Both the position numbers and the translations under genes were made by a program. Of a stretch of 64,000 bases of DNA, positions 1,528-17,777 are shown one piece after another. Under the pieces are notes generated by a model. The model saw only the letters and a list, made by a program, of their open reading frames with translations. It ran no database searches and had not been told where the DNA came from. The stretch comes from Fibrobacter sp. (GTDB lineage: Bacteria; Fibrobacterota; Fibrobacteria; Fibrobacterales; Fibrobacteraceae). Within the stretch, counting starts at the first letter, position 1. The number at the start of each line of letters is the position of its first letter. Location of the stretch: assembly GCA_024399065.1 (NCBI GenBank), contig JAKSIB010000001.1, positions 124,001 to 188,000 on the forward strand. The letters are read 5' to 3'.

Positions 1528-2091
1528 TTATATTGTCTTAATCACTTTCGCAGGAACGCCGCCTACCACGGTTTTGGGGGCGACGTTTTTGTTTACTACG
1601 GCGCCTGCCGCAACAATGGCTCCGTCACCGATGGTAACGCCCGGGAGAATGGTTGCGTTGGAACCGATCCACACGTTTTTACCGATGTGGATGGGTTTGG
1701 GGTACATATCTCCGCGATGTTCCGGTTCGGGGGCGTGATTCAATGTGGCGAGAACGACGTTGTGACCGATGAGGGCACCGTCGTCGATGGTGATGCCACC
1801 TTGATCCTGGAATTTGCAGCCGGCGTTAATGAATACCCGTTTGCCGATTTTGATGTTTCTGCCGCAGTCCGTATTGAAGGGCGGGAACAGCCCGAAAGAT
1901 TCATCGACAGGCTCGCCGATCAGCTCCGAAAACAGCTTGCGGATTTCGGCAGGCTCGTGATAGCCTGTGTTAATTTCCGCAGTGATTTTCAAGGCCCGCT
2001 GGGACATTTCGTGCATAAGCAAATGGGTTTCACTTCCTGCGATGATTCGCGCGCCGGAGACCATGACCTTCTTGAATTCTTCCAGAGTCAT
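1528..2091 (-). CDS. Sugar O-acetyltransferase, maltose/galactoside acetyltransferase type
   Basis: 187 aa. The N-terminal helical cap (about 1-60) is followed by a left-handed beta-helix of hexapeptide repeats (about 70-185), with the motifs [29 protein letters not shown] (catalytic His in the NH pair), [17 protein letters not shown] and [10 protein letters not shown], and the typical ending GGVPAKVIK. It would transfer acetyl from acetyl-CoA to a sugar or similar hydroxyl acceptor in the cytoplasm; the acceptor is unknown. Its start codon overlaps the stop of the flavodoxin-like gene (TAATG), so the two are probably translationally coupled. It is the last gene of a three-gene minus-strand operon. 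Confidence 0.85.
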
Positions 2092-2627
2092 TAGACCTTA
2101 GATCCCTTCTTGTAGGCTTCGGCGAGAGCGACCTTGTTGCTTGCGGTTTCCTTGGGTTCGGAGGCGCTGGCGAAAACAGTTCCCTTCAGCTTGACGTTGT
2201 CGAAACAGGCAATCCAGCCTTTGATTCCGTTTATAGCGTTCTTTGGGGTGGTCTTTTCATTTTCGGCGGCGGTAGCCAGCAAGTAGATTTCGCGGAACTT
2301 GTATTCGCTAATGTAAAGGGAATTAGCGCGGTCCAGCATGGTCTTCAGCTGGCCGCACATTTCGTAGTAATAGATGGGCGTTGCGAAGACGATGACTTCG
2401 GCGTTCTTCATCTTTTCGGTGATTTCGTTGGCGTCGTCCTTGATGACGCACTTGCCCTTCTTTTGGCAGGCGAGGCAACCGCGACAGAATGCGATATTCT
2501 TGCCTTGCAGGGAAATGTATTCCACATCGTTACCGGCGTCCTTTGCGCCCTTGGCGAACTCTTTTGCAAGAATGTCGGAGTTGCTTCCCTTGCGGAGGCT
2601 AGAAGAAATAACAAGAACTTTTTTCAT
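2091..2627 (-). CDS. Flavodoxin-like FMN reductase with a Cys motif (iron-sulfur flavoprotein type)
   Basis: 178 aa. The N-terminus [19 protein letters not shown] is the FMN phosphate-binding loop of the NADPH-dependent FMN reductase fold. Cys48, Cys51, Cys54 and Cys60 form a CxxCxxCx5C motif as in iron-sulfur flavoproteins, and [13 protein letters not shown] is the second flavin contact. It probably transfers electrons between a pyridine nucleotide and small acceptors in the cytosol. A GGAG ribosome site lies 8 nt upstream of the ATG. Thirty-one bases separate it from the cyclophilin-like gene upstream, and it overlaps the acetyltransferase by one base. Confidence 0.85.
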
Positions 2628-2658
2628 TTGCGTGTCTCCATAAAAAATGCTGAGCGAA

Positions 2659-3183
2659 TTAAAGACTTTGGATTGTGATTTTCTTGGCGCCGGATTTCAG
2701 GGCGTCCTTTAAGCTGTCTGGATTTTCAAAAATTCCGATGTCGCTGTAGTTGTAGCCTGGATTGCTGAAGGTCTCGTAGAAAAAGACGAGGCAGTCGGAA
2801 CCATAAACCTTGATGTCGCCTTTCTTGATGGTGTCGGGAACGAAGCTTGTTGTCTTGAAACCGGAATCCAAATAGACATAGTATTCGTTGCCGTGAAGTT
2901 CCGTCATGGAAATTGTTAGGGGAAGTTTTTCCTTGAAACTTTGCGCGGTGGCGTTGTCTGCTAGGGTGGCAATGAATTCTTGAGAGCCGATGGTGATTTT
3001 GATTTTGTTCATTTCAATTTTTACCGTCGAAGAACTGCTGGCTTGAACGGATTGTGCGTTGGACGAACTGGTTTTAGCAGCGATTTCATTTGAACCTTGT
3101 TCCGCGTTTGACCCGGAATCGGCGCAGGCATACAAAGGCAGAAGCAATAGGCCTGCAAAAATAAAATTCAACAAATTTTTCAT
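2659..3183 (-). CDS. Cyclophilin-like fold lipoprotein
   Basis: 174 aa from ATG 3183; an upstream in-frame start at 3261 would bury the signal sequence, so it is rejected. The signal peptide ends in a lipobox (LPLYAC), followed by a Ser/Asn-rich linker to about residue 55. The rest (KIKITIGSQEFIATLADNA through DIGIFENP) matches the small cyclophilin-like domain found beside flavodoxins and aldo/keto reductases. It probably sits in the periplasm attached to a membrane; its activity is unknown. It is the first gene of the operon with the flavodoxin and acetyltransferase. On the minus strand, TTGCTA-N17-TATATT ends 6 nt before the ATG, so the mRNA may be leaderless. Confidence 0.75.
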   Translation of the reverse strand: MKNLLNFIFAGLLLLPLYACADSGSNAEQGSNEIAAKTSSSNAQSVQASSSSTVKIEMNKIKITIGSQEFIATLADNATAQSFKEKLPLTISMTELHGNEYYVYLDSGFKTTSFVPDTIKKGDIKVYGSDCLVFFYETFSNPGYNYSDIGIFENPDSLKDALKSGAKKITIQSL

Positions 3184-3189
3184 GTCACA

Positions 3190-3218
3190 AATATAGCGTT
3201 GTTTTGTTGAAATAGCAA
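3190..3218 (-). promoter_or_regulatory. Predicted promoter of the cyclophilin-like/flavodoxin/acetyltransferase operon
   Basis: Minus-strand TTGCTA (3213-3218), 17-bp spacer, TATATT (3190-3195). Only six bases separate the -10 box from the ATG at 3183, placing the expected transcript start at or next to the start codon. Confidence 0.5.
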
Positions 3219-3341
3219 ATACTTTGATTTTATATACTGTTATGCCTAAAAAGCATAGCAAAGTATAAAAATTAAGTATTTGCTTATTGTGATTTTCAGT
3301 TCTAAATTGTACCTTGCAAAAACATCTTCATAGGATTGAAA

Positions 3342-4529
3342 ATGAATTTCAAGAAATCTTCCTTTGGTAAAATTGTTACCGCTGCCGCAGTAATCTCTGT
3401 GGCAACCGCTTTCACCGCCTGTTGCGACAAGAGTGACGCAACTCAGACTGCAAAGGCTGCAAACGCAACTATCAACTACTCCGCAAACGAGACCGCTATG
3501 GCACAGAACGAAAAATTGGAACTGACTCAAGAATGGGACAAGGTTTTCCCCAAGAGCGAAAAGGTGGATCACAAGAAGGTGACCTTCACCAATAACTTCG
3601 GCATCACCTTGGCTGCCGATATGTACATCCCGAAGGATGCAAGCCTTGCTGTAAATGGTAAGTTCCCGGCCATCGCTGTTTCTGGCCCCTTCGGCGCCGT
3701 GAAGGAACAGTCCAGCGGTCTCTACGCACAGACCATGGCAGAAAAGGGTTACTTGACCATCGCATTTGACCCCAGCTTTACTGGCGAAAGCAGCGGCATG
3801 CCCCGCCGCGTGGCTTCTCCGGATATCAACACCGAAGATTTCATGGCCGCTGTAGATTTTCTCGGTGCTCAGGAAAATGTGGATGCTGAACGCATCGGCA
3901 TTATCGGTATTTGCGGTTGGGGTGGTATCGCCCTGAACGCCGCTGCCGCGGACACCCGCATCAAGGCAACTGTGGCAAGCACCATGTACGACATGACCCG
4001 CGTGGGTGGCAACGGTTACTTCGATTCTGCTGACAATGAAGAAGCCCGTTACGAAGGCCGCAAGGCTCTCGCAGCCCAGCGCGTAAAGGATCGCGCCGCA
4101 GGTTCCTATCTTCGTGCCGGTGGCGTTGTGGACCCGCTTCCGGATGATGCGCCCTACTTCGTGAAGGATTACTACGCTTATTACAAGACTCCTCGTGGTT
4201 ACCACAAGCGTTCTGGAAACTCCAACGATGGTTGGAATGCAACAGGCACCCAGGCTTATGCCAACGCCCGATTCCTCCGTTACACCAACGAAATTCGCTC
4301 CGCAGTTCTCGTGATGCACGGCGACAAGGCTCATTCCTTCTACTTCGGCAAGGATGCTTACAAGTACATGGTTGAAGGCAATCCCGCTGCAGGCATCAAG
4401 GCAAATCCGAATCCTTCCAACAAGGAACTTTTGGTGATTCCTGGCGCATCTCACGTGGATCTTTACGACAACATGGAAAAGATTCCTTTCGCAAAGCTTG
4501 ACGAATTCTTCAAGACTAACTTGAAGTAA
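3342..4529 (+). CDS. Alpha/beta hydrolase lipoprotein (dienelactone hydrolase/YcjY-like)
   Basis: 395 aa. ATG 3342 is preferred over TTG 3336 because AGGA lies 6 nt upstream. The signal peptide ends in lipobox AFTAC (Cys27). The alpha/beta hydrolase core shows an oxyanion region (VSGPFGAV), the nucleophile elbow GICGWGG with Cys191 in place of the usual Ser, an acid region near VMHGDKAHS, and a final His in GASHVDLY. A Cys nucleophile is normal in dienelactone hydrolase, so activity is plausible, but the substrate is unknown. It is probably periplasmic and membrane-anchored. It is monocistronic, ending at the terminator 4561-4588, and is divergent from the cyclophilin-like operon. Confidence 0.75.
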   Translation: MNFKKSSFGKIVTAAAVISVATAFTACCDKSDATQTAKAANATINYSANETAMAQNEKLELTQEWDKVFPKSEKVDHKKVTFTNNFGITLAADMYIPKDASLAVNGKFPAIAVSGPFGAVKEQSSGLYAQTMAEKGYLTIAFDPSFTGESSGMPRRVASPDINTEDFMAAVDFLGAQENVDAERIGIIGICGWGGIALNAAAADTRIKATVASTMYDMTRVGGNGYFDSADNEEARYEGRKALAAQRVKDRAAGSYLRAGGVVDPLPDDAPYFVKDYYAYYKTPRGYHKRSGNSNDGWNATGTQAYANARFLRYTNEIRSAVLVMHGDKAHSFYFGKDAYKYMVEGNPAAGIKANPNPSNKELLVIPGASHVDLYDNMEKIPFAKLDEFFKTNLK

Positions 4530-4560
4530 TTAGCGGGTTGCTGCGAAAATGCATTCTGAA

Positions 4561-4588
4561 AGAAGGTGGTTCGCTACCTTCTTTTTTT
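4561..4588 (+). terminator. Rho-independent terminator after the alpha/beta hydrolase
   Basis: Hairpin with AGAAGGT and ACCTTCT arms around a TTCG loop, followed by a T run. Confidence 0.8.
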
Positions 4589-4600
4589 ATAAAAAATGAT

Positions 4601-4631
4601 TTGACATTGAGTTAACTCTAGGTGTTAAATT
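4601..4631 (+). promoter_or_regulatory. MerR-type promoter/operator, copy 2
   Basis: TTGACA-N19-TAAATT, with the spacer carrying the same TTGAGTTAACTCTAGGTG core as 553-570. The second in-frame ATG of the next gene (4638) lies 6 nt after the -10 box. The shared operator implies one regulator for the aldo/keto reductase and the broken amidohydrolase; no MerR gene lies in the window. Confidence 0.8.
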
Positions 4632-4637
4632 ATGAAT

Positions 4638-5579
4638 ATGAAAAACCTCCTTTCAAGTTTTCTTGTGGCGTCGGTGACGTTTTTGCTGGGTTGCTCCAGC
4701 GAAAGTGTTGCTGCAAAAACTGCGGAAAATGAAACTCAGGTCAGCGGAGGTGAATCTGTGACCGTTGCAAATACAATCAAGTTGAATAGTGGCTACTCTA
4801 TGCCGGTTCTTGGTCTTGGAACCTGGACTATGAGCAATTCCTTTGCATCGGATGCTGTTTATGAAGCAATCAAGATGGGCTATCGTCTTTTTGATACGGC
4901 GGAATATTACGGCAACGAGAAGGGCGTTGGGGAAGGTGTTCGCCGTGCTATTAAGGATGGCCTTGTAAAGCGCGAAGATGTTTTCGTGACTACCAAGGTG
5001 ATGCCTGGCTATTACCGCAATCCGGAAAAGGCTATTGACGAATCCAATGAAACATTGGGCCTGGGTTACATCGACTTGATGCTAGTGCATCAGTCGGGGC
5101 CCAATGACGACGGCGTCTATAAGGCTTTGGAACACGGCGTTGCCGCAGGGAAAATTCGATCCATTGGAATTTCCAATTACTATACGGCGGAAGAATTTGA
5201 GCGTGTGACCGCAGGTGCAAAAATCAAGCCCGCTGTTGTGCAGAACGAAAATCATCCGCTGTACCAGAATACGGAATTCCAGAAATATGTAGCCAAGTAC
5301 GGTACCGTTGTGGAATCCTACTATCCACTCGGCGGTCGCGGGAATACCCAGAAAATTCTTGGCAATTCTACGCTGAAAGAAATCGCAAAAGCACACGGAA
5401 AGACCGCGGCTCAGGTGGATTTGCGCTGGCATATTCAGGCTGGCTACATCACCATTCCGGGAATCGATTCCTTGAAATATCTGGAAGAGAATTTCAACCT
5501 TTTTGACTTTGAATTGACTACTGAAGAAATGAAGAAGATTGGCGGAATGGATACGGGTCGCCGATTTGAAAACTGGTGA
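4638..5579 (+). CDS. Aldo/keto reductase lipoprotein
   Basis: 313 aa from ATG 4638 (an in-frame ATG at 4632 abuts the -10 box). The signal peptide ends in lipobox LLGC (Cys19), then a linker to about residue 45. The AKR barrel follows with the complete catalytic tetrad Asp86, Tyr91, Lys120 and His151 (DTAEYYG, VTTKVMPG, LMLVHQSGP). NADPH-binding residues are expected in the C-terminal half. It would reduce aldehydes or ketones. A lipid-anchored, exported AKR is unusual, because NADPH is cytoplasmic. It is controlled by the MerR-type promoter directly upstream and shows no Shine-Dalgarno. Confidence 0.85.
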   Translation: MKNLLSSFLVASVTFLLGCSSESVAAKTAENETQVSGGESVTVANTIKLNSGYSMPVLGLGTWTMSNSFASDAVYEAIKMGYRLFDTAEYYGNEKGVGEGVRRAIKDGLVKREDVFVTTKVMPGYYRNPEKAIDESNETLGLGYIDLMLVHQSGPNDDGVYKALEHGVAAGKIRSIGISNYYTAEEFERVTAGAKIKPAVVQNENHPLYQNTEFQKYVAKYGTVVESYYPLGGRGNTQKILGNSTLKEIAKAHGKTAAQVDLRWHIQAGYITIPGIDSLKYLEENFNLFDFELTTEEMKKIGGMDTGRRFENW

Positions 5580-5588
5580 TCTTGTTAT

Positions 5589-5675
5589 TTATTCCAGTTC
5601 CTGCTTCAACATTTCTAGGAAGAGCGCTGCCGGCTTACTGAAGGCAGCGTTCTTTTTATAGAGGGTAAATGCGAC
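5589..5675 (-). pseudogene. C-terminal remnant of a LysR-type regulator
   Basis: The minus strand encodes about 28 residues ending KKNAAFSKPAALFLEMLK plus four more and a stop. The intact LysR gene at 18864-19742 has the same C-terminus, and the DNA match is close. Upstream of about 5675 the similarity ends abruptly, so everything but the tail is gone. This implies a former LysR gene convergent with the aldo/keto reductase. Confidence 0.8.
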
Positions 5676-5770
5676 ATGAAAAGCCTAGAGTAATTACGAA
5701 GTCGTAAGTTGACCCATAGAAATCTCGAAATGCAAATGGAGTTGATTGCTTTGGGCTGATTCATCCAAAA

Positions 5771-5857
5771 GTGGCGTAAAGTGGATAATTTATTTTCAAT
5801 AACCAATCAGTAAGTGGGTGATAGTGGACATTTTCCTGATTCAGTGGAAAAATGTGG
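5771..5857 (+). repeat. Phased GTGG direct repeats (MraZ-box-like)
   Basis: GTGG occurs at 5771, 5781, 5814, 5824, 5844 and 5854, so each neighbouring pair is spaced exactly 10 bp. AAAGTGG begins the first two units. This resembles MraZ boxes, but no mraZ gene follows; the nearest gene is convergent. The surrounding 5676-5881 holds no other gene. Confidence 0.45.
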
Positions 5858-5881
5858 GGATTTTTAAGGATAATCAGAATA

Positions 5882-5907
5882 CAAAAACGCCACCCTTATG
5901 GGTGGCG
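5882..5907 (-). terminator. Terminator of the GIY-YIG/AAA+ operon
   Basis: Perfect stem CGCCACCC/GGGTGGCG with a 4-nt loop; on the minus strand it is followed by TTTTTG. It lies 7 nt after the stop of the GIY-YIG gene. Confidence 0.85.
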
Positions 5908-5913
5908 ATTATC

Positions 5914-6435
5914 TTATTTTAATTTATTGACGTAGTATTCTCGCTTGTCCAGCGTCACCTGCTCCCACCTTTCATCAATGGTGAACTTCATTTCCAGGAG
6001 ATTGGCAGAACATCCCATCGCCCTGATAAGCAGGGCCTCCACATCCTTGATGGATTCATTTGTATCGCCCTGCTTGACTTTTGCGATATTGGTCTGCACA
6101 TTGATAATACCCTCCTTGTTCGCTTTTGTGGAACAGACCTTCTTGAAACCGAACCAGGAAAAACGATCCCAGTTGTCCTTGTGTTCGTCGTAGGTGTGTT
6201 CCTTGAGCCTTTTACCTAGTCCGCGAAATTCGCTTTCGGCATTGGCGAGTCCTACGTAGTACGGGCCATAAGGTCCATAGAGAATGTAGATACCCTGCTG
6301 AAATTGAAAGTCGGCAACTTTGAGCGTATTCCTTGTTGCGCCTCGTCTTCCGAGAAGCTCGAACTTGTTGCCTGTACCAGGTGTCCAGACGACTTCGTCT
6401 CTGCGCCAGAAAAGTCCGTAGTTCAGTATTTCCAT
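5914..6435 (-). CDS. GIY-YIG superfamily nuclease-like protein
   Basis: 173 aa. GIYILYG (Gly48-Tyr50) and YYVG (60-62) form the GIY-YIG signature. Arg76 in LGKRLKEH and Glu133 in DVEALLIRAMG fit the catalytic Arg and metal-binding Glu, so a metal-dependent single-strand nicking activity is plausible. The N-terminal 45 residues are extra to the fold. It lies 28 nt downstream of the tandem AAA+ ATPase gene with a good AGGAG site, so it is the second gene of that operon. The pairing of a small nuclease with an ATPase motor beside a methylase suggests a defence role, which is inference. Confidence 0.75.
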   Translation of the reverse strand: MEILNYGLFWRRDEVVWTPGTGNKFELLGRRGATRNTLKVADFQFQQGIYILYGPYGPYYVGLANAESEFRGLGKRLKEHTYDEHKDNWDRFSWFGFKKVCSTKANKEGIINVQTNIAKVKQGDTNESIKDVEALLIRAMGCSANLLEMKFTIDERWEQVTLDKREYYVNKLK

Positions 6436-6463
6436 AAGGATACTCCTGTTTAAGTTGAATGTT

Positions 6464-8698
6464 CTAAAATCCCATTTTCCGATTTGCAGTAGAACCCGGT
6501 TTTTGCGCCACTTCCTCTAGCAAAGCTGCGGCTACACGGTCAGATGTCAATGTCGTAGGATCCATGTATTTCAAGGTTCCGTAGACGGCGTTGAAATCAC
6601 CAGGGGCGAGCATGGTTTGTTCCTGAATTCGTCTAGGGCATTCCAGGTTCGGGAAGAAGCAGTTCCATACTTCAGCGATTCCTTTCGGCTTCATGTAGTT
6701 GAATTTCAACTTCATGGCAAAACGGCGGCGGCAGGCATTATCCAGCACATCATTAAAGTTGGTGGCGGCGATAAAAACTCCCTTGAAATTTTCCATCTGA
6801 GTCAAGAGTTCGTTCACCCTTGACACTTCAAAGGATTGCAGAGCGCTTTCACGATTTCTCAGCAGGCTGTCTGCTTCGTCTAAGAAAAGAACAGCCTTCT
6901 TTTGTTCCGCCTCGCGGAACATTTTGCGGATATTTTTCTCAGTTTCCCCAACAAACATGCTTTCCAAATCACTGACTCTCTTGACGAGAAGTTTACGGTT
7001 CAGCTCCCTGGCGATGTACTTGGCGTATTCCGTCTTGCCGGTACCCGGCGGACCATAGAACAACATGTTCAAGGATTCTGCAGAATCACATTCCTTGAGC
7101 GTCGTCCATTTCACATCAAAGGCACGAATCACTTTCCAGATCTCATCTTGATTTCCGTCAATGTTCAGAACGTCCTTGGAATATCTGGGCGCATGGCTTG
7201 CGGAGTCTCGCTTTCCGTATTCCAACGGAATGCCGATAAGATTTGCCTGAGCCGTGGCCATCTGGCGAATAATCTCTGTTGCATTCAGCTCGGAACCCGA
7301 TTTTCGAAGTTCCTTCGCAAAGCAAATTGCCTGAGTAACACCGCCCGCAGTAATTGGAATTTCCTTGGAAATACTGACCATTTCCTCGTGGCTCAAAAGC
7401 TCTTGAGCGTCATGCTTTTTGATTACGGATTCCCAGATTTCAACACGCCGTTCAGCATCCAGTCTTTCAAAACAAATGGAGAAATCAAATCGTCTAAGGG
7501 TACTGTCTTCGATACCTCTTATTTCATTGCTGATCCAAATAACCGGAACCTTGATCTGCTCAAGAAAGAAATTCAGCGCACCCTTCTCGCAAAAGTTCAA
7601 GATGTAATCGGCTTCATCTACCAAGAGGATTACCTTATCGTTCCGAAACTTGTACGCGGCAAACAGGACGCTTTCCATTCGTTCAAAAATACCCGAGTCG
7701 CTGTTGTTTCCACGATGAGAACCTCGCGTGCTAAAATTGGTGAGAATGAGAGGGCGATTCAGCTCGCGGGCAATAGACTTTGCCAGCTCAGTTTTGCCGG
7801 TTCCTTCCACACCGTACAGGAAAACGTTCATTCCCTCACCTGGCTTTGCATGCTTGAGCATTTCAAACATGATGTCGACTTCTTTGCGGTCTCTCTTCAG
7901 CTGAGCGTATTCAACACAGTCGCCCTTATAGACTCTGTAGTAACAATCCTCGATATTTTCCCCTTCGCGACCATCTAAAAAATTCTGAATCCTGCCACTC
8001 AACGTCAGATTGTCATAATGGTCATTGATCAGAATTTTCATGCGCATCATGGTGGACGTTGGGGCGATAGCCTGTTCCAATTCCTTGCCATATTCCGGGA
8101 AAAGCTTCTTGATAAAAATGAGAGACGTTTCTTGTTCGTTCTTGTCACAAGTTCCACGGATATCATTGAGAATGGACTTGTCTTTAGTCCAAAGGTAAAG
8201 AAGCAATTCTCCTTCCAAATCCGTCAGGTCAAAGGCCTTCTTGATTTTATTGAAACGCTTGACAAAAGGGTCTCTTGGAGCGACACCCTTTTGGACAATT
8301 TTCAGGTACAGTTCCACAATGGAATCGTATATGAACTTTTTGCGGGAGGCCCTCAAGTCTTCAAATACATTTTGACTGTAACGGCATAAGTCATCCATGT
8401 TCATGGAGACCAAGGCGTCCTTCAGTTCATCATAGTAGCGCGCGAAACTATCCCGTTCGTCTTTACTCAATTTTTTACGCTCTTGATCCACTTCTTTCAA
8501 TATGAGGCGGGCGATGGATTTGGCGCCCTGATCCGGCAAAATTTCCAAGGGCTCGTGTATAGACATAGCAGGACCATACTTGAGCCGACGAGCCCAATAT
8601 TCAAAGCCCTTCACCATGTAGAGGCTTCTGTAATCAGTACCTTTGAGACCACCCTTCCTGATGGTATCGGCAACCTGCTTGAAATATTCCTTCTTCAT
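6464..8698 (-). CDS. Tandem AAA+ ATPase with helical N-terminal region
   Basis: 744 aa. Residues 1-285 are charged and helical with no recognised domain. AAA+ module 1 has Walker A GVEGTGKTE (296-304), Walker B ILLVDEAD (357-364), sensor 1 WISNE and Arg-rich LRRFDF. Module 2 has GPPGTGKTE (549-557), LFLDEAD (604-610), ATNFND and CRRRF. Both modules keep their key residues, so both probably hydrolyse ATP. This layout recalls Cdc48-like or McrB-like motors but the N-domain is distinct. It is divergent from the methylase gene across a 156-bp control region, and cotranscribed with the GIY-YIG gene. Confidence 0.85.
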   Translation of the reverse strand: MKKEYFKQVADTIRKGGLKGTDYRSLYMVKGFEYWARRLKYGPAMSIHEPLEILPDQGAKSIARLILKEVDQERKKLSKDERDSFARYYDELKDALVSMNMDDLCRYSQNVFEDLRASRKKFIYDSIVELYLKIVQKGVAPRDPFVKRFNKIKKAFDLTDLEGELLLYLWTKDKSILNDIRGTCDKNEQETSLIFIKKLFPEYGKELEQAIAPTSTMMRMKILINDHYDNLTLSGRIQNFLDGREGENIEDCYYRVYKGDCVEYAQLKRDRKEVDIMFEMLKHAKPGEGMNVFLYGVEGTGKTELAKSIARELNRPLILTNFSTRGSHRGNNSDSGIFERMESVLFAAYKFRNDKVILLVDEADYILNFCEKGALNFFLEQIKVPVIWISNEIRGIEDSTLRRFDFSICFERLDAERRVEIWESVIKKHDAQELLSHEEMVSISKEIPITAGGVTQAICFAKELRKSGSELNATEIIRQMATAQANLIGIPLEYGKRDSASHAPRYSKDVLNIDGNQDEIWKVIRAFDVKWTTLKECDSAESLNMLFYGPPGTGKTEYAKYIARELNRKLLVKRVSDLESMFVGETEKNIRKMFREAEQKKAVLFLDEADSLLRNRESALQSFEVSRVNELLTQMENFKGVFIAATNFNDVLDNACRRRFAMKLKFNYMKPKGIAEVWNCFFPNLECPRRIQEQTMLAPGDFNAVYGTLKYMDPTTLTSDRVAAALLEEVAQKPGSTANRKMGF

Positions 8699-8762
8699 TT
8701 TGGACCTCTTTTTTGCCTATTTGAAATTTTTACTGGGAAAATTTCAATCCATTATCTATATT

Positions 8763-8819
8763 TTAGGTATTGCTTTACCTAATTTTAAATATAAGTAAAT
8801 TTTCTGTCATAATCTGACA
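8763..8819. promoter_or_regulatory. Divergent control region with two inverted repeats
   Basis: Between the AAA+ and methylase genes, TTAGGTA-N6-TACCTAA lies at 8763-8782 and TGTCA-N5-TGACA at 8805-8819. The second overlaps the likely methylase promoter (ATTATAAAT at about 8819-8827). An identical TGTCA-N5-TGACA occurs before rtcB at 16224. Both divergent genes have similar leaders with AAAAGAGG before the ATG. Confidence 0.5.
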
Positions 8820-8854
8820 TTATAAATCGTTTTTTAGAGAAAAAAGAGGCAAAA

Positions 8855-10654
8855 ATGGGACAAAAGGACGTCAAAAAGTTGGTTCGCGACCTTCAGAATG
8901 CGGCAAAAAAGATTTCTTCCGGCAACGAGACCTATTTTGCGGCGGCATTCATGGCCTTTATGCTGCGTGAAAATCGCAACTACAACAGGTTCCTTTTGCC
9001 ATACGACGCCTTTGAACCGCCCAAGGACGCCCCGCAGGATGTCGTTGCAGCAGCAAAGAACTTTAATATTGCCCCAGTCTGGCAGGAGTTCCAAGACTCG
9101 TTCTCGGAATACTTCTGCGAAGATTACGAGAACGCCATTCATTTCATTGGAGAAAATTACAGTAAATCAGTTTCTGCGCCAGCAACACCGAAATCTGTTT
9201 CGGATTTGGCGATTGCTTTGTTGGATGTAAAGTCTAATGATTGCGTCATTGATATCGGTAGCGGATGCGGCAATTTTCTTACCCAGGCAAGTGTGAAACG
9301 TGACGTTGAACTTTGCGGAATCGAAAAGGATTCCTACGCTCACCTCATTTCCCTTTTACGACTGTATGTTTCTGGCGTCAGAAATTTTGAGAAGATAATT
9401 TCAGACGATGCTTTCAAGTGGCACCTTCCGGGATTTGACAAAGGAGGCCGACTGGGCCGGGCGTATCGCGTCTATAAGAATCCACGCAAGATATTTGCCA
9501 ACTATCCGTTTGCCGCCCGCGCAAAGGCTCTGGGTGATAACGCCACAAAATTCGCATGGGAACTGAAAAGGCAACTGGGACTTTCTCAGGACATTTATTC
9601 CGCGGATTGGATGTATAACGGCCTTGCCTGCATCATGATGGGGTTCCCAGGAATGGCCGTAACCGTGATGGGAGCAGGTAGTGCCTGGAAACAAAACGAC
9701 GCTATCGTACGAGAGACTTTTGTAAAAAAGGACCTGATTGATGCTGTCATCGAACTGCCTCCCAAAATTTTACCAGGGACTGCCGCTGATTTGTGCATGA
9801 TAGTATTCAAGCCCTGTTCCAAAGGAGTAAAGCTGATTGATGCCCGCAGCGAGGGAATTATCGGCCGTAGAGAAACTGTCCTTAATGAAGTGATGATCGA
9901 CCGCATCATGGATCTTTACAAAAATACAGAACCCACTACTGCGGAGGATTTGAAGAAAGCAAATTATTGCCTGATTGCAAGCCGATTTGAGGCTGAAAAA
10001 AACGCCATCGGCACAAACGTCGAGAACATGCCCCCCAAAAAAGGCTATGCAACAAGAGTGCTGGGTAATTTCTGCCAACTGAAACGCGGCGCCATGATTT
10101 CATCAGAAGAATTGGACGAAGCCTTGTGCAAAAAAAGTGTAGGTTTCCGCTATATGGTTCCTAGCAACATTGTCAATGGCGAAGTCGCGCAGAACTTGCC
10201 CTTCATTGACCCGTACCTTCTGAAACGGAGAGTCAATTTAAACCTGTACTGTGCAAAGCCTCAAAACATCGTGATGACAAAGAATGGGTTCCCTTGCCGA
10301 TTGGCTGTAATCCCTAATGATTCTCAGGATACCGCACCAGATCGGATTCTTGTGAACAACAACCTCTTCATTATCAATGTGGACGGAACCGTTGCGGATT
10401 CGGAATATGTGAAGCTATTCTTGGAAAGTTCTCGCGGCCAGTCACTCATCAAGAACAGTATGGTGGGTGGCAATGTGCAGACCATCGACCAAAAGGCATT
10501 CCTGAATATTGTGATTCCGTTACCCTCGCTGGACAAGCAAAAAGCATTCGTCAAAAAACACAACGCCACTCAAGCCCAAGTCAAGAAAATCCGCCAGCAA
10601 CTAGAAGAGGCCTTGAGTAAGGCCTCTGTGGAGTTGGATGAGGAGATGGGGTGA
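8855..10654 (+). CDS. N6-adenine DNA methylase (HsdM-like) with a fused specificity-type C-terminus
   Basis: 599 aa. The N-terminal helical part (1-110) resembles HsdM. SAM motif I is VIDIGSGCGNF (131-141), after the TP-x-SVSDL element. Motif IV is NYPF (216-219), where HsdM enzymes have NPPF. From about residue 395 the protein reads like a type I specificity subunit: RVLGNFCQLKRG, IPLPSLDKQKAF and a C-terminal coiled coil. One protein may therefore both recognise and modify DNA. The ending overlaps no neighbour; the PLD gene follows after 109 nt on the same strand. It is likely the self-marking component of a restriction-type system. Confidence 0.8.
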   Translation: MGQKDVKKLVRDLQNAAKKISSGNETYFAAAFMAFMLRENRNYNRFLLPYDAFEPPKDAPQDVVAAAKNFNIAPVWQEFQDSFSEYFCEDYENAIHFIGENYSKSVSAPATPKSVSDLAIALLDVKSNDCVIDIGSGCGNFLTQASVKRDVELCGIEKDSYAHLISLLRLYVSGVRNFEKIISDDAFKWHLPGFDKGGRLGRAYRVYKNPRKIFANYPFAARAKALGDNATKFAWELKRQLGLSQDIYSADWMYNGLACIMMGFPGMAVTVMGAGSAWKQNDAIVRETFVKKDLIDAVIELPPKILPGTAADLCMIVFKPCSKGVKLIDARSEGIIGRRETVLNEVMIDRIMDLYKNTEPTTAEDLKKANYCLIASRFEAEKNAIGTNVENMPPKKGYATRVLGNFCQLKRGAMISSEELDEALCKKSVGFRYMVPSNIVNGEVAQNLPFIDPYLLKRRVNLNLYCAKPQNIVMTKNGFPCRLAVIPNDSQDTAPDRILVNNNLFIINVDGTVADSEYVKLFLESSRGQSLIKNSMVGGNVQTIDQKAFLNIVIPLPSLDKQKAFVKKHNATQAQVKKIRQQLEEALSKASVELDEEMG

Positions 10655-10763
10655 GAGGGAGAATAAAAAAAAGAATTTGTTTACGCACAATTGCTTGAAT
10701 TGATTTAAATTGGAAAAGTAAAGTTAAAAAACAGAAGAATCCTATTGAAGGGAGTGAACAAAG

Positions 10764-12227
10764 ATGAAATTCTTATCTACGGGCAAATGCTTTAAGGACA
10801 ATAAAAAGCCTACTAAGGTAGGATATTTGGGGAAAAGAACAATTGAAGCTTCTGGAAAACTTCAAAAACTCATAATAGTGTCCGCATATACAGATGCAGC
10901 TCTTATAAACAAAGCTATATCTTGGTTTGGCAAAGAGCGTGATTGTCGTGGTCGAGGGCATATTGCAATATATCTTGATGCTGACTCTAGTCGTTATTAC
11001 TCTTCTTCAAAAGAAAAAACACGTCTTAATGAACTTGCAAGAATGATCAAACAAAGATTTGATAAGAATAGTGGAATTTACTTAGTAAATTGTTCGGCAT
11101 TATTTCACTCTAAATTCATATTAAGCGAATCAACTACACATTGTCAAGTTGTTTTAGGATCTATCAATTTTACAAGCCGAGCTTTTGAAAAAAACGAGGA
11201 AATAGCATTATCTTATTGTTGGTCAAAAAAGCCAAGTCATCCTACTGAAGAAGCTTTGAAAAATAAATTGGAAAGTTATATAGGAGCGTTAGATTGTTCA
11301 AAGATCCCCAATAGCACTGAAAAAAAGAAGATTTTCTCAGTACGAAGTCAACTGTTAAACGGATCGTTGTATAACGAGTTAAAAGAACAAGCTTCGTTCA
11401 GATTTGATTTGCATCTGCCAGACGAGTATTTGAGTTACTTGAACGCGAAAAGAAAGAAAAATGATGACATTCCCCTTGACATAAAAACATCGGGTTCTGT
11501 ATCACTGGAATATCTTCTTCAAATTGCAGGGATTGAAACGAAATTTTACGAAAAAAATGTTTCTCGTGGACGAAAAAATTGGAAAAATTACGCTATAGAA
11601 ACCTGTTTTGGTTTTTGGGTGCCAAACGGATACAAATCCTCCGCTGTTGAAATTGATATTGGAAAATTCGCTAATCAAAAAAAGAATAAGCTAAATGATC
11701 TTTATTCTAAAGTCAATACTAATAAGGAAAAATTAGTTGATTCTTTCATGAATTTGATGGAAAAAATAAAGGAAGATAGAAAACAGTATTTTAAAAATTC
11801 GATTGGCATAAATGGAGAATACTCGCCACATAACGAAAATGACAACTGGATATACGACAGAGAACCAAGTACGTCCATTCAAAAAGATGTGAGTGATTGG
11901 ATCAAAGGAATTACAAATAAGATAAATCCTAGTAATAAAAGATATAAGGATTATCAACAACGTTTGTGTCGAGGTGTTTCAGTAGTAAATGTTCCTGATG
12001 TATGGACGGAAGATCCCTTGTCTACAGAAGAATTTGAAAGCTCTCTTTACGATTCCATAAAATACTATTTATCTGTAAAAGACAAGGTTGTAAAAAAAAT
12101 ATGTTCAGTCATTGACGGCAAAATAAAAGAGACAATGCCTGACTATCTCGCCAGCAAACTGACTCAAACACAAATTCTTGAGGCTTTCAGTAATGCGAGT
12201 TTTTTGATAGAGGAAGAAAAAAAATAG
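10764..12227 (+). CDS. Phospholipase D-like nuclease
   Basis: 487 aa. His115-x-Lys117 followed by GSINFTS (132-138) is the HKD half-motif of the PLD superfamily. One copy is visible, so activity may need a dimer, as in BfiI-type and Nuc endonucleases. The part after about residue 190 is Lys-rich, has no recognised motif, and could bind DNA. The gene is clearly richer in A+T than its neighbours, a sign of transfer. GGGAG precedes the ATG at 10764. It follows the methylase in the same direction, so it may be the cutting partner; restriction function is inference. Confidence 0.7.
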   Translation: MKFLSTGKCFKDNKKPTKVGYLGKRTIEASGKLQKLIIVSAYTDAALINKAISWFGKERDCRGRGHIAIYLDADSSRYYSSSKEKTRLNELARMIKQRFDKNSGIYLVNCSALFHSKFILSESTTHCQVVLGSINFTSRAFEKNEEIALSYCWSKKPSHPTEEALKNKLESYIGALDCSKIPNSTEKKKIFSVRSQLLNGSLYNELKEQASFRFDLHLPDEYLSYLNAKRKKNDDIPLDIKTSGSVSLEYLLQIAGIETKFYEKNVSRGRKNWKNYAIETCFGFWVPNGYKSSAVEIDIGKFANQKKNKLNDLYSKVNTNKEKLVDSFMNLMEKIKEDRKQYFKNSIGINGEYSPHNENDNWIYDREPSTSIQKDVSDWIKGITNKINPSNKRYKDYQQRLCRGVSVVNVPDVWTEDPLSTEEFESSLYDSIKYYLSVKDKVVKKICSVIDGKIKETMPDYLASKLTQTQILEAFSNASFLIEEEKK

Positions 12228-12277
12228 AGCGCTCTTTTTACTTTTTGATGAACTGTTGAATAACTGATGTCAAAAAC

Positions 12278-12307
12278 AAAAACGCAGCTCTAAAGGGCTG
12301 CGTTTTT
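12278..12307. terminator. Bidirectional terminator between PLD and HNH genes
   Basis: Stem AAAACGCAGC/GCTGCGTTTT with a short loop and A/T runs on both sides, between convergent genes. Confidence 0.85.
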
Positions 12308-12318
12308 GAGTTAGCGGA

Positions 12319-13299
12319 TTATTTTTCCCTATCTTGCCACACATTTTTCCTATGATAGGACATGAATCGTTTCTGATTAGCGTTAAGCTTTTTTCTTAGT
12401 TTTAAATCTTTTGATAATCCAAGGATTTCCCAATCTTTTTTCTTCACCTTTTTAGAAATTTTGATTGTTCCGTTATCTTCAAAAGTTATTAATCCCTTAT
12501 CAAAAAGAGCGTCAAAATTAGCCGTAAGAATCAATCCATTATCTGGAGAAATTCTGTCTTTAGCGGTATCGCATTTCTTCCATGGTTTTGCATGACTTGC
12601 AATTAAAACGCCCTTTGTTGTGCAACTAGAGACGGCACAAGCGTTATCCCATTTTTTCATTAAATCATCTTTGTATTTTCCATGACCAACTCGAGCATCA
12701 ATAACAGCTTTTCGAGTCGTGTCATCCAAAATGGTCTCATCAAGAGACGGAAGGAATGTTTCAAAAAAATTCTTTATAGCACAAATTGCACCATCTTTTT
12801 TTATATCAAAATAGTACGAAAGGTATCCCCAATTATTTTTTCCAACACTCAGTTTCTTTATTTCTTCATTTTCCAAGCACAAGGCAACCCTTCGACAAAC
12901 ATTTCCGTTTTCATTTTCGGTTGTATATTCAGCAATCAAAGTATTGAAATTATCGATTTTGTATGTTTCAATTTCTGTGCTAAATAAACAAACGGGAATA
13001 GATCTATCTGTCGCATATCTCAAAAAATCTTCAGATTTCATTTTTTCAGTGAAGTCAACAGCAAAACAATATCTTATCCCGCCTTCTTCTTTTGGCTTGC
13101 AAGAGTCAACCCACAATTCCACGGGATATTCTTTTCCCTTTATTTTTATGCAGTCCAATTCAACAAACTGATACTTGTCGCCGTCTTCACCTTCGCCAAA
13201 AGAATTGAAAGGGTATTTTGTGCATCCAACTTCTAGTAATTCGTCCTCATACATTTTTACAAATTTTTTGAGCGCCTCGTTAAGTTCTTTTGCGGACAT
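12319..13299 (-). CDS. HNH endonuclease
   Basis: 326 aa from ATG 13299, which has AGGAG 6 nt upstream; the longer in-frame start at 13320 is less likely. The C-terminal part is an HNH_2-type domain: Cys221 and Cys226, ASHAKPW (His236), then DRISPDNGLIL and DALFDKGLI (254-271). The N-terminal 200 residues have no recognised motif and may recognise DNA or bind a partner. Similar proteins are common as stand-alone restriction or Mrr-like enzymes. The gene is A+T-rich like the PLD gene and converges on it, so it looks like part of the same island. Confidence 0.8.
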   Translation of the reverse strand: MSAKELNEALKKFVKMYEDELLEVGCTKYPFNSFGEGEDGDKYQFVELDCIKIKGKEYPVELWVDSCKPKEEGGIRYCFAVDFTEKMKSEDFLRYATDRSIPVCLFSTEIETYKIDNFNTLIAEYTTENENGNVCRRVALCLENEEIKKLSVGKNNWGYLSYYFDIKKDGAICAIKNFFETFLPSLDETILDDTTRKAVIDARVGHGKYKDDLMKKWDNACAVSSCTTKGVLIASHAKPWKKCDTAKDRISPDNGLILTANFDALFDKGLITFEDNGTIKISKKVKKKDWEILGLSKDLKLRKKLNANQKRFMSYHRKNVWQDREK

Positions 13300-13503
13300 A
13301 ATGATCTCCTTTATTTTCAATTAATATAAACTTTTTTCAAGAAAAGATTAAATGTCGTTGACCAGAAACACTTCAAAAGCTCTTGTTCAATGATATTTCG
13401 ATGCTGTTTGATAACGTCTCGTAAAAGTTATAATAATGTCATCTTTTGACACTTTTCCCAATCTATATTTACCTGTGAGCCAGTCACGAAAAATGGGGGC
13501 GGC

Positions 13504-14043
13504 ATGTCAAAATGTATTCTCAAGAGTATACGTCGAGAGGTTTCTGAATACGGGTTTGATCCAGAAGCTTTCAATGCCGAAATTTCGGTTCTTACGGAAA
13601 AGGGCAAAACCCTTTACTTTACAATTGTGGACTTGGATGACACTCCGAGAATCTACAGGACCACGAGAAGTATTTTTGAAAAAGTCTTGAATAGTGGCAT
13701 GAAAAATTCGGATGAAGCAAGCCGTCTTTCCGAAGACGAACTGGAGGAAGCGGGCAGCAAATACTTTACCAAATTATTTGAAAAGCATGGTGTTTGTCGC
13801 GGAGATAGTTACGAAGTCTTTTATTGCGACGATGCCGTTGGCGGCGAATACCGCGAGGCCATCCGGGCGCTGATTTACCTGGTCTGTTGTTGCGACATGG
13901 AATTTGAGCATATTTCCAAAGAGTGGATTGACAAGACCATCGGCGATTTCGAAATCCCCATGTGCGATGTGGAACAGGCTTCTAACCTCGGCATTGAACT
14001 AGAAGAACTTTATGAAGACGACGATGAAGACGAATCAATTTAA
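13504..14043 (+). CDS. Acidic protein of unknown function
   Basis: 179 aa. The family is not recognised. The protein is soluble, strongly acidic, with two neighbouring Cys (LVCCCDMEFE) and a tail of Asp and Glu (EELYEDDDEDE). There is no signal peptide or membrane segment. A start in the other frame at 13436 gives a shorter shadow and was discarded. The 204 bases before it hold the HNH promoter region and nothing else clear. The next feature starts 23 nt downstream, so the two may be cotranscribed. Confidence 0.6.
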   Translation: MSKCILKSIRREVSEYGFDPEAFNAEISVLTEKGKTLYFTIVDLDDTPRIYRTTRSIFEKVLNSGMKNSDEASRLSEDELEEAGSKYFTKLFEKHGVCRGDSYEVFYCDDAVGGEYREAIRALIYLVCCCDMEFEHISKEWIDKTIGDFEIPMCDVEQASNLGIELEELYEDDDEDESI

Positions 14044-14066
14044 ACCGATAACTCGTAGGAGTCTTT

Positions 14067-14397
14067 ATGAAAGTTGTTATCCTTACCTGGAATCCGGCGA
14101 ATTCCGATTTCAAAATTGAAGATATTTGACCACGATTTGGACACTAGCAGCCTGGATCGTTTGAAAGAGGATTTGGAATGTCGCCTTGGCTACTCGTTGA
14201 AGTGGGACGAGAAAGTTCCACCAACGGATCCGCGTAAAGGGTTCTATTTAACTTATGAGCATGGTGGCATTTCCATTAACGATCATGGCGTTGCCGGCGT
14301 CACGCTAAATTACTATGAGATCAGCAAAGAGAGATGGGTCTTGCAATATCCGAATTATTTGAATTCTGCACTAAAATCCAAGAAAAAGAAGCAGTAA
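14067..14397 (+). pseudogene. Frameshifted EVE-like (PUA-fold) gene fragment
   Basis: From ATG 14067 (AGGAG upstream) the product begins MKVVILTWNPANSDFKIEDI and then stops. Its start matches that of the next gene (STYVLSWNPKKSNF). The next frame is open from within this stretch to 14397, reading FDHDLDTSSLDRLKEDLE and on to a Lys-rich end. A one-base change or a fusion of two unrelated pieces would explain it. The second part has no recognised domain and is much shorter than the neighbouring paralogue. Confidence 0.55.
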
Positions 14398-14470
14398 AAA
14401 TTGCTTTTATCGGCTTTTTTTTTCATTTGATGGTAAATTTAGAGAGAGCAAATAAGTTACAGGAGATTTT

Positions 14471-15289
14471 ATGAGTACTTATGTTTTGAGTTGGAACCCG
14501 AAAAAATCAAATTTCAGAGCAAACGACTTAAAAAAGGCGTTTAAAGAATACGGGGAATCAGATGAGTACGTCCTTAAGTGGGGAATCTCCAAAAACACCT
14601 CGTTTGAAAATGGGGATAGATTCTTTTTAGTACGCCAAGAGAATGGCAAAGCTGATGTTATAATGAGTGGCGAGGCTGCTTCCTGGGCTGACTACGACAA
14701 TAACGATAAAAGGTTTATAGATTTACGGCCCGATTACATTGTCGATCCTAAAAAATCGATCCTTGAGAATTCCGAACTGAAAAAGAAACTTCCAAAAATC
14801 AAATGGGATGAGTTTCGTGATGAAATAGAATTGAGCGATTCTAATGCGGAGAAGTTGGAATGGCTTTGGGTCGAGACCCTGTATAAAGAAGCTCCTTCCG
14901 CAACTCAAAAAATTTACTATAAGAATTGTCCCGCTTTAATTGGATATAGCGTGCAAAAGGAAACCGGGACTGCCTGCGAAATTTGTCGTCAGGACATCAA
15001 TGAGATCTTTGATACGAGTTTCATGGATAAAATTAATCTTAGTCCATTGGCATATGGTGTATATATGTTCCCGTCCGCTCGAACAGCCAAGTCGGCAAGG
15101 TCGTTATTCCATACGATATGTCCTAGTTGCAAGGCTGTTTATAACATGCTTTGCTTAGTAGAAAACAATAGCCAGCCTTTGGCCATTGAATGGCTGAGAA
15201 CGATTTTGAAGAAAGCTCCTCTAAAAAAGGAATCTTCGCAGAGTAAATCTCGTTTACCCACGCAACAGGATATTGAGTTCCCTGAATAA
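14471..15289 (+). CDS. EVE-like N-terminal domain protein with zinc-finger/HNH-like C-terminus
   Basis: 272 aa. Residues 1-95 (YVLSWNPKKSNF, NGDRFFLVRQ, VIMSGEAASW) look like an EVE/PUA-type fold, which reads modified bases in restriction and RNA systems. The C-terminal part has Cys169-x2-Cys172 and His214-x2-Cys217-x2-Cys220, a zinc-binding frame as in HNH enzymes, but no clear catalytic His-Asn pair is seen. AGGAG lies 6 nt before the ATG. It sits next to a broken paralogue and the defence island, so a role in sensing foreign or modified nucleic acid is a reasonable guess. Confidence 0.6.
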   Translation: MSTYVLSWNPKKSNFRANDLKKAFKEYGESDEYVLKWGISKNTSFENGDRFFLVRQENGKADVIMSGEAASWADYDNNDKRFIDLRPDYIVDPKKSILENSELKKKLPKIKWDEFRDEIELSDSNAEKLEWLWVETLYKEAPSATQKIYYKNCPALIGYSVQKETGTACEICRQDINEIFDTSFMDKINLSPLAYGVYMFPSARTAKSARSLFHTICPSCKAVYNMLCLVENNSQPLAIEWLRTILKKAPLKKESSQSKSRLPTQQDIEFPE

Positions 15290-15399
15290 TGGGGTATTTT
15301 TCCCTTTCGCTTTGAACTATTAAGTATTTCTTAATGGTTGCCTCTGGTGGTAATTCTTCACCTTCGTATGTATTTTGTCATTGAAGATGACTATTAATT

Positions 15400-15437
15400 A
15401 ACCTACTACAATTATTCATATTTGTAGTAGGTTTTTT
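15400..15437. terminator. Strong terminator
   Basis: Perfect 12-bp stem AACCTACTACAA/TTGTAGTAGGTT, 10-nt loop, then TTTT. It lies between two convergent genes; the remaining bases of 15290-15534 show nothing. Confidence 0.85.
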
Positions 15438-15534
15438 GTACAACTAAGGAATTTGCGTTCTTTACCGAAAGAATTGCTTGCACAGAAATTATAAAGAATT
15501 GTCTGGCATCAAACTTACTTGAGGCTCAGGTGGT

Positions 15535-16164
15535 TTACCCTGATTCCTTCTGACAGCGGTGGTCGTAGAAAAGTTCCCGTTCAGCCAGCTCAAATAGATT
15601 GAAACCATTCTTGGAAAAGAAGTGGTCCTGACCGGGGACAACTTCTACTTTGACATTTTCTCGTTCGTATAGCTTGAACAGATCGACCGTTCCGATGGAC
15701 GGATCTTCGCTGCCGAACACGAATGTCATTTTTTCGCCTGCAAATCTTTTCGTGGCGGCGCAAAGTTTGGGCGTGTTTATCATGAGGGGCGGATTGATTA
15801 ATAACAGCCGCTTCACTTGCGGAATTTTTGTCCAGTCCATGCAACCCTGGGATGCCCCCTTTGAAAATCCCATGAAATAGATTTCGGCTTGATCAAAGTT
15901 TTCAATGACAGTTTCTAATACTTGCATTGCGTGAGTTGCCTGGTTTATGCCGCATTCCGGATTGGAGCCGCAAACAACCGTAATGCCATATTTTTCCCTG
16001 GCGTTTAATGCGATGCTCAGGTATTTATCGTGGTAGCCGTTCATGGAGCCATGTGCTCCGGCCTTGATGAAGAGAATCTTTTGAGAATCTCCAAATACAA
16101 AACCGTAGTCGACGCTTGCATCGTCAACTTCGAAAGAGAGAATTTTGTCAAAGGATTTGTTCAT
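15535..16164 (-). CDS. Alpha/beta hydrolase fold protein
   Basis: 209 aa, no signal peptide. The nucleophile elbow is GFSKG (around residue 99), the acid is probably Asp in FGSEDPS, and the base is His in PGQDHFF near the C-terminus, so a complete triad is present. The early strand ILFIKAGAHGSMNG would form the oxyanion region. The size fits small cytosolic esterases or dienelactone-hydrolase-like enzymes. The substrate is unknown. It is divergent from rtcB, sharing a 157-bp intergenic region that contains an inverted repeat. Confidence 0.7.
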   Translation of the reverse strand: MNKSFDKILSFEVDDASVDYGFVFGDSQKILFIKAGAHGSMNGYHDKYLSIALNAREKYGITVVCGSNPECGINQATHAMQVLETVIENFDQAEIYFMGFSKGASQGCMDWTKIPQVKRLLLINPPLMINTPKLCAATKRFAGEKMTFVFGSEDPSIGTVDLFKLYERENVKVEVVPGQDHFFSKNGFNLFELAERELFYDHRCQKESG

Positions 16165-16223
16165 GAGCTAGGGGATACATAAGGTGGGATTCTTCCGACC
16201 ACAAAAATGTAGAAATTTTATAT

Positions 16224-16238
16224 TGTCAAAATATGACA
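16224..16238. promoter_or_regulatory. TGTCA-N5-TGACA inverted repeat before rtcB
   Basis: The same arms and 5-nt spacing occur at 8805-8819 before the methylase gene. It lies 84 nt before the rtcB start, in the divergent intergenic region. Confidence 0.4.
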
Positions 16239-16321
16239 TTTACTATTAATTATATTATCCGGTGATAGCAATAAGTTTGACGAGTTTCATTTTTCCGCCG
16301 ATATGTTCTATGAGGTAGAAT

Positions 16322-17485
16322 ATGCAAATAGAAGGCAAGTTCACCGGGGCAAGCATTTTTGCAAACACTATTGAGCCTGAAACTATTGAACAGGTGAAGC
16401 GTGTTTGCGACCATCCCATTTTCAGGGATTGCAGCATCAAGGTGATGCCCGATTGTCACGCAGGCGCGGGCTGCGTCATCGGCTTTACATCGGATATGCC
16501 GCACTATGGAGAAATCATCCCGAACATCATCGGCGTGGATCAGAGTTGCGGAATGTACGTGGTGAAGTTGGAAGAATCGCCACTCCTGAACGATTACGAA
16601 AAACTTGACAAGGTCATCCGCGGGCACGTGCCCTGCGGCTTTGACGGGCGTGACGCCGTCAGTGAAGAAGTTCCTGAAGACTTGTACGAAGATGTCCGTC
16701 GTATTTCCACAGACATCCTGAAAGACAATTACGTTACCCACTTGAAGAAAATCGGATCCCTGGGCGGCGGCAATCATTTTATTTCCATCGAGAAGGGCGA
16801 AACCGGAACCTATCTGATTATCCACAGCGGTTCCCGAAACTTCGGAAACAAATTGGCAGTTCATTTCCAGAGTATCGCCAATGAAAAGCATTGCTACGGT
16901 GAAGGCGTTCTGAAGACACTCTCGTACATCGACGGCAAGGACGCCGAGGAATACCTGAAGTGCGCCAATGTGTGCAGGCGTTTTGCCCATTGGTCCCGAA
17001 AGATTATGGCGAAGACGATTATGGTGGGCATGCGCTGGAAAGAAGAAAGTTCCTTTGAAACGCTCCACAACTACATCGGAAACGACAACATCATTCGCAA
17101 GGGCGCGATCAGCTGCAATGCCGATGAGAAGGTTCTGATTCCGCTGAACATGCGAGACGGTTCGCTGATTTGCGTTGGCAAGGGTAACGCAGAATGGAAC
17201 AACAGTGGCCCCCACGGCGCAGGCAGAGTTCTTTCACGCACCGCGGCTCGCGAAACGCTTTCCATGAAGGAATACAAGAGCACCATGGAAGGCATCTGGA
17301 CCAGCTGCGTAAACGTTTCAACCATCGACGAATCTCCCATGGCCTACAAGAACGGCGACGAAATCAAGTCGCTCATCCAGAGTACCGCCGCAGTCGTTGA
17401 TCACCTGAAGCCCGTTTACAACTTCAAGTGCGCCGAAGACGCCTCGTTCATCAAAAGGCGAAAAGAAAAGATGAAGGAAAGGTGA
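16322..17485 (+). CDS. rtcB: RtcB-family RNA ligase
   Basis: 387 aa. RtcB joins RNA 2',3'-cyclic phosphate or 3'-phosphate ends to 5'-OH ends using GTP and Mn2+. Visible signatures: MPDCHAGAGCVIGFT, GVDQSCGMY (Cys76 metal ligand; usual relatives read GVDIGCGM), SLGGGNHFI, HSGSRNFG, and PHGAGRVLSRTAARE, where His298 is the expected guanylylation site. The length is shorter than the roughly 410-480 aa of E. coli and archaeal RtcB, as in the compact bacterial branch. GAGG lies 6 nt upstream. No archease or RtcA gene is adjacent. It probably acts in RNA repair in the cytoplasm. Confidence 0.9.
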   Translation: MQIEGKFTGASIFANTIEPETIEQVKRVCDHPIFRDCSIKVMPDCHAGAGCVIGFTSDMPHYGEIIPNIIGVDQSCGMYVVKLEESPLLNDYEKLDKVIRGHVPCGFDGRDAVSEEVPEDLYEDVRRISTDILKDNYVTHLKKIGSLGGGNHFISIEKGETGTYLIIHSGSRNFGNKLAVHFQSIANEKHCYGEGVLKTLSYIDGKDAEEYLKCANVCRRFAHWSRKIMAKTIMVGMRWKEESSFETLHNYIGNDNIIRKGAISCNADEKVLIPLNMRDGSLICVGKGNAEWNNSGPHGAGRVLSRTAARETLSMKEYKSTMEGIWTSCVNVSTIDESPMAYKNGDEIKSLIQSTAAVVDHLKPVYNFKCAEDASFIKRRKEKMKER

Positions 17486-17648
17486 ACAAAGAAAAACATG
17501 AATAGAACAGGTCAACTTTGCGGCCCTTGATTGTTCAGGTAATATTTTATATATTGGATTGCACCACCACTGAGTGCGTTGCCGGACGTAGACCTGTTTA
17601 GTTTCGTCCTAAAGTTGATACATTCACATTTAGCGAAAGGAAATGGCA

Positions 17649-17774
17649 ATGGCTCTCAATATGAAACCTGTGGTGATTCGCCGGTCTCAGGTGAACGAAT
17701 TCCTGAAATATCTGTCTGAGGGGAAAAATCCCCAGGAATCTCAGGATCGTTCCGCAAAGCCTGCGTCCAAGTAA
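17649..17774 (+). CDS. Small protein (41 aa) preceding the GNAT gene
   Basis: ATG 17649 has AAAGGAA 7 nt upstream; an ATG at 17643 is also in frame. The product starts MALNMKPVVIRRSQVNEF, is basic at the N-terminus and ends in a Ser/Lys-rich tail. No family is recognised. It ends 3 nt before the GNAT start, so it is translated from the same mRNA and may be coupled. An antitoxin role for the GNAT protein is possible but unsupported by any motif. Confidence 0.5.
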   Translation: MALNMKPVVIRRSQVNEFLKYLSEGKNPQESQDRSAKPASK

Positions 17775-17777
17775 TCC

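Follow-up and report, generated by a model that had tools for sequence, protein, structure and literature searches.

The region studied here probably belongs to an acquired island of composite make-up, which lies at a LysR 3' end and holds several unrelated defence- and stress-type genes and not one system. The window is the whole stretch of 64,000 nucleotides that was analysed; it comes from a rumen-type Fibrobacter chromosome. The acquired block within it spans 13.2 kb (5666-18861) and the studied genes form its left part. The basis of the composite reading is directly observed: the borders of the block, an empty site in one genome, alternative cargo in another, the gene families present and the absence of co-occurrence of these genes within the bacterial family.

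The island is flanked by a 79-bp direct repeat, with copies at 5587-5665 and 18862-18940 that are identical at 74 of 79 positions (94%). The right copy lies inside the LysR gene (18864-19742), at its 3' end; the left copy, which marks the left border, duplicates that end. In the sister genome G054, of the same genus, one copy of the repeat is found versus two here. This genome is collinear with window positions 1624-5583 and 18841-19753 (93-96% identity), and between the collinear flanks a single gene for a 158-aa flavodoxin-like protein takes the place of the 13 kb. The stretch that borders the left repeat on its outer side here (5565-5586) runs straight into the LysR end in G028 and G108. 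Because of this direct junction, the start of the island was placed at the repeat.

At the same LysR 3' end, G028 carries an Eco57I-type methyltransferase (MTase) and a BsuBI/PstI endonuclease (L269:12696-15151; one genome only). Given the empty site in G054 and this restriction-modification (R-M) pair in G028, an island at a site receiving defence cargo is therefore well supported. The LysR 3' end takes different cargo in different Fibrobacter genomes and may be a cargo hotspot. Fibrobacter genomes are reported to contain 9.8 defence systems on average (PMC11834463). A composite island acquired at such a site is consistent with this high number and ordinary in kind. No integrase was found among the island genes, and a promoter scan across the island detected no excess of promoter-like matches over shuffled sequence. 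Elsewhere in the window there is another direct repeat of about 363 bp (23369-23731 and 23959-24321, 75% identical).

A sequence-only reading of this DNA had proposed a candidate defence island at 5914-13299, formed by GIY-YIG, AAA+, methylase, PLD and HNH genes. All five ORFs were found in their places with the domains ascribed to them, the GIY-YIG protein by its motif residues and the other four by Pfam. They are not chance ORFs, since they are long and conserved and have homologues. The genes do lie in the proposed interval, but the island continues to 18861 and is bounded by the repeat. As a discrete acquired block with restriction-type genes at a cargo site the defence island stands, but as one four-gene system it is not supported. 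What had been a vague possible new system is now an island with defined borders, and its insertion site can be used to sample defence cargo across Fibrobacter.

The AAA+ gene (6464-8698, minus strand) encodes a tandem ATPase of 744 aa with both Walker sites intact. PF00004 matches it in two stretches (E=1.5e-45), and 11 full-length relatives could be aligned at 28-48% identity. Its N-terminal region, used as a query, matched in 47 of the 111 genomes of the family. The sequence-only reading had suggested listing the neighbours of such homologues. Among 22 loci searched within 9 kb, a WYL regulator is present in 11, a SLOG gene in 6 and a hydrolase in 6, while a homologue of the MTase, PLD, GIY or HNH gene is present in none (0/22). 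The gene set thus does not recur around these 22 AAA+ relatives. On a Desulfosarcina plasmid (L086) a relative of the AAA+ gene lies divergent to a WYL gene. In L038 a single protein encoded downstream of AAA+ (L038:12279-13436) joins the hydrolase to a YpsA-like SLOG domain. In L042 and L046 the AAA+ gene, and in L063 the MTase-TRD gene, directly adjoins RecC- and RecB-like genes.

The right part of the island contains relatives of these neighbours. An alpha/beta-hydrolase-like protein (15535-16164, minus strand; fold assigned by eye, no Pfam match) is 52% identical to L047_8, a member of the hydrolase family that accompanies the AAA+ gene elsewhere in Fibrobacter. It is followed by an RtcB-family RNA ligase (16322-17485, plus strand; PF01139, E=4.7e-49) and, further on, by a SLOG/DprA-like nucleotide-binding protein (18344-18883, plus strand; motif by eye, no Pfam match). 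WYL, SLOG and RtcB genes have been tied to nucleotide or RNA-damage signalling (PMC4012209, PMC9503650). The WYL, SLOG and hydrolase neighbours, together with RtcB in the island, therefore point to the AAA+ protein being part of a stress or conflict module. Such a module (AAA+, hydrolase, RtcB and SLOG) would respond to nucleotide or RNA damage, with the AAA+ protein as its putative protein remodeller. Here as for the other island genes, the mechanism is inferred from families and context.

Four more ORFs, all on the plus strand, complete the island. Three belong to no family: orf6 (13504-14043, 179 aa), which has a distant homologue near the AAA+ gene in L038, and, by Pfam scan, orf7 (14074-14397, 107 aa) and orf8 (14471-15289, 272 aa, with a Cys/His-rich C-terminus). 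The AF2 model of orf8 from a single sequence was uninformative (pLDDT 38). By eye it appears to combine a PUA/EVE-type N-terminus with the Cys/His-rich C-terminus, a reading without database or fold support. The fourth (17778-18347) is a weak match to GNAT-like acetyltransferases (PF00583, E=0.014, under the cut-off).

The GIY-YIG-type nuclease (5914-6435, minus strand, 173 aa) has no Pfam profile match. Three aligned homologues share its GIY...Y[VI]G motif and the residues Arg76, His80 and Glu133 without change. None of the 111 family genomes has a homologue, and in the phylum one weak relative was found. The best relatives are a gene on a Methylobacterium extorquens megaplasmid, which adjoins a putative dinB (read by eye), and phage genes. 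The phage homologues, one of them annotated "endonuclease II", lie near terminase and portal genes, and the relatives are mostly phage orphans. The protein would then be an orphan nuclease of phage origin.

The HNH gene (12319-13320, minus strand) encodes a 333-aa endonuclease with a C-terminal domain of the VcaM4I type; the ORF reaches 13320 from a TTG start, or 13299 from the ATG that the sequence-only reading had used. It matches HNH_2 (PF13391, E=3e-9), and residues 195-329 match VcaM4I 177-307 (6yex chain A, E=3.9e-18) with the catalytic His224 aligned. Across the N-terminal ~190 residues there is no Pfam EVE match, and the PDB match spans 195-329 only. It may be a stand-alone restriction nuclease, probably triggered through an N-terminal domain that senses modified DNA, as VcaM4I is through its EVE domain.

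The methylase gene (8855-10654, plus strand, 599 aa) is a fusion of an N6-MTase (PF02384, E=2.9e-20) with one target-recognition domain (TRD), detected by the Specificity_I and Methylase_S models at residues of about 390-590 (gamma-class M~S). The AF2 model has a pLDDT of 88, and its PDB matches are complete MTases including 7eew, PacII and CamA. Motif IV reads NYPF (residues 216-219); the typical form according to a review is NPP(Y/F/W) (PMC3874165). Genome contigs were scanned with an alignment of five members, which yielded 80 loci of this family, of which 53 were examined. HsdM/HsdR homologues are present in 37 of the 53, and these or a gene of ~176 aa (s176) in 41. A frequent gene order is fusion - s176 - HsdM - HsdS - HsdR. 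This five-gene type I R-M operon, opened by the fusion with altered motif IV, recurs across L089-L136 (e.g. L096:8331-16750); its s176 is uncharacterised and without a Pfam match.

Canonical motif IV was found in none of the 44 aligned family members versus 40 of 41 HsdM-type proteins from the same loci. The forms found include NYPF (14), DYPW (5) and NYPL (5), and the second position is taken by Tyr in 30 members and by Phe in 5. Since the family never has the canonical motif, the suggestion in the sequence-only reading that the methylase marks self DNA is doubtful. NYPF is no proof of inactivity, because the KsgA/Erm RNA methyltransferases also lack Pro at the second position (PMC3814359); that methylation may persist counts against the composite reading. 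A "dead MTase" was rejected for the window protein, in whose motif IV the Asn, the Phe and the second Pro are retained; KsgA/Erm provide the parallel for its non-Pro second residue. The HSVF, QCQF, FPTW or DAPL seen in relatives suggests catalytic loss in some members.

Orphan relatives reduced to the TRD/C-terminal part were found in L302, L303, L304 and L331. The window protein appears to be an orphan whose family stands at the head of type I R-M operons, and recognition of a DNA half-site as a regulator or sensor would be a more likely role for it than genome protection by methylation. A broader reading can be put forward only tentatively: that methylase-TRD proteins in which motif IV is altered or lost form a widespread family, co-opted for DNA recognition in a sensor or regulator role. 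This family would usually open type I R-M operons, often with s176, and its orphan and TRD-only forms would pair with AAA+ genes amid SLOG/WYL/RtcB stress genes, the island being one such case. These methylase-like proteins, most of which accompany type I R-M systems, may not methylate at all; they may be sensors, regulators or slow enzymes, and annotation of them as self-marking methylases could be wrong.

The AAA+ and M~S genes are divergent and separated by 156 bp (8699-8854). The sequence-only reading had joined the two arms. A divergent AAA+/orphan M~S pair does recur, in Ruminococcus flavefaciens (L114 with a gap of 205 bp, L124 with 109 bp) and in a viral contig (L306, 260 bp), but with another AAA+ family: profiles of the Ruminococcus and window proteins align over one AAA domain only, and assignment to the same family was rejected for this reason. 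The recurrence hints at a function for this pair at least, and it counts against a purely composite island. It is a lead only, since the cases are few and the Ruminococcus loci are related.

The composite reading has as its closest rival a two-part module in which the AAA+ protein and the divergent M~S cooperate. The M~S would bind DNA by its TRD and repress the divergent promoter or recruit the AAA+ protein, and SLOG, WYL and RtcB would give the stress signal. Besides the recurrence of the pair, the surroundings favour it: a UPF0227 hydrolase lies near the pair in both L114 and L124, a SLOG gene adjoins the AAA+ gene in L114, and RtcB and WYL are nearby in L124. A 5-kb faecal contig (L331) carries an AAA+ gene, a WYL gene and a TRD-only M~S relative, and the L304 protein is another TRD-only form. 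The Ruminococcus orphans have HSVF, HSPF and QCQF as motif IV. Against it, the AAA+ families differ, the tandem AAA+ family is found without M~S in 22 loci, and besides the window there are only two independent lineages, L114 and L124 being closely related. Overall, the two-part module seems rather unlikely. No AAA+ match was found in the 41 R-M- or s176-linked loci of the M~S family. The orphan MTase-TRD gene of L114 adjoins a set of three genes, among them one for a PLD-like protein and one for a DEAD-type helicase (L114:10687-16995), and on the Desulfosarcina plasmid the AAA+ gene is followed by a similar PLD/helicase set.

The PLD gene (10764-12227, plus strand) encodes a nuclease-like protein of 487 aa that matches PLDc_2 (PF13091, 28.4 bits, cut-off 27), with HxK and GSxN residues invariant in three homologues. 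Of two relatives found in Fibrobacter, one (L066) is located within a type I R-M locus; viral contigs yielded none. The protein could be a dimeric nuclease drawn from a type I R-M-associated pool. As the sequence-only reading had noted, the PLD and HNH genes are A+T-rich (G+C 33% and 34%, against 48% for the window).

PLD-type restriction enzymes are known, for example BfiI. The M~S and PLD genes might form a compact two-gene R-M pair, in which the M~S methylates a site and the PLD protein cuts unmethylated DNA. They are adjacent on one strand with a 109-bp gap and could be one operon, which is a further point against the composite reading. The conserved PLD active site, the complete predicted M~S fold and the PLD relative in the R-M locus agree with such a pair. 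It is nevertheless unlikely: the two genes were together in no other locus examined, their G+C differs strongly (47% for M~S versus 33%) and motif IV of the M~S is atypical.

It is very improbable that the genes form a single undescribed defence system of four or five genes, in which methylation marks self, the AAA+ protein is the motor and three nucleases are effectors: they are physically close in an island context, but no second locus with the set was found in family genomes or on plasmids (the co-occurrence test covered mainly one bacterial family, 111 genomes), and the homologues of each gene lie in differing contexts, unrelated ones for AAA+ and mostly phages for GIY-YIG. Within the family this is the outcome that the sequence-only reading had named as refuting its proposal.

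Among the closest known systems, the island shares with type I R-M and gamma-class M~S the N6-MTase domain, TRD and C-terminal helix, with a fold like 7eew, PacII and CamA, and M~S family members open type I operons. It differs in that a single TRD is fused to M and motif IV is NYPF, not NPP(Y/F/W). HsdR, HsdS, HsdM and s176 were not found in the window, nor was an HsdR translocase/nuclease ORF among the island genes and their neighbours. The HNH domain with its catalytic His is shared with VcaM4I, an EVE-HNH modification-dependent endonuclease, but for the N-terminal ~190 residues the Pfam scan gave no EVE match. The AAA domain resembles the anti-phage ATPase of IetAS/IteA (PADLOC IetA E=2e-50, NCBIfam IteA E=2e-46), but the window protein is tandem and scores 158.9 against an IteA equivalog cut-off of 510 bits. 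A subtilisin-like protease partner, as in IetAS, was absent among the scanned neighbours of the AAA+ gene. The MTase/TRD and PLD domains resemble single components of MADS (mad2/mad5), BREX and DISARM, but scores are far under the NCBIfam cut-offs for MADS, and no other core genes of the three systems were seen among the neighbours. RtcB and SLOG-like genes in the island, and WYL and YpsA-like SLOG in relatives, are shared with the RtcB/WYL/SLOG conflict and RNA-repair neighbourhoods (PMC4012209, PMC9503650). ADP-ribosylation enzymes were not found here, and the neighbourhood is instead centred on the AAA+ gene and the hydrolase family. What is unusual in detail is the MTase-TRD family with its altered motif and its divergent AAA+ partners.
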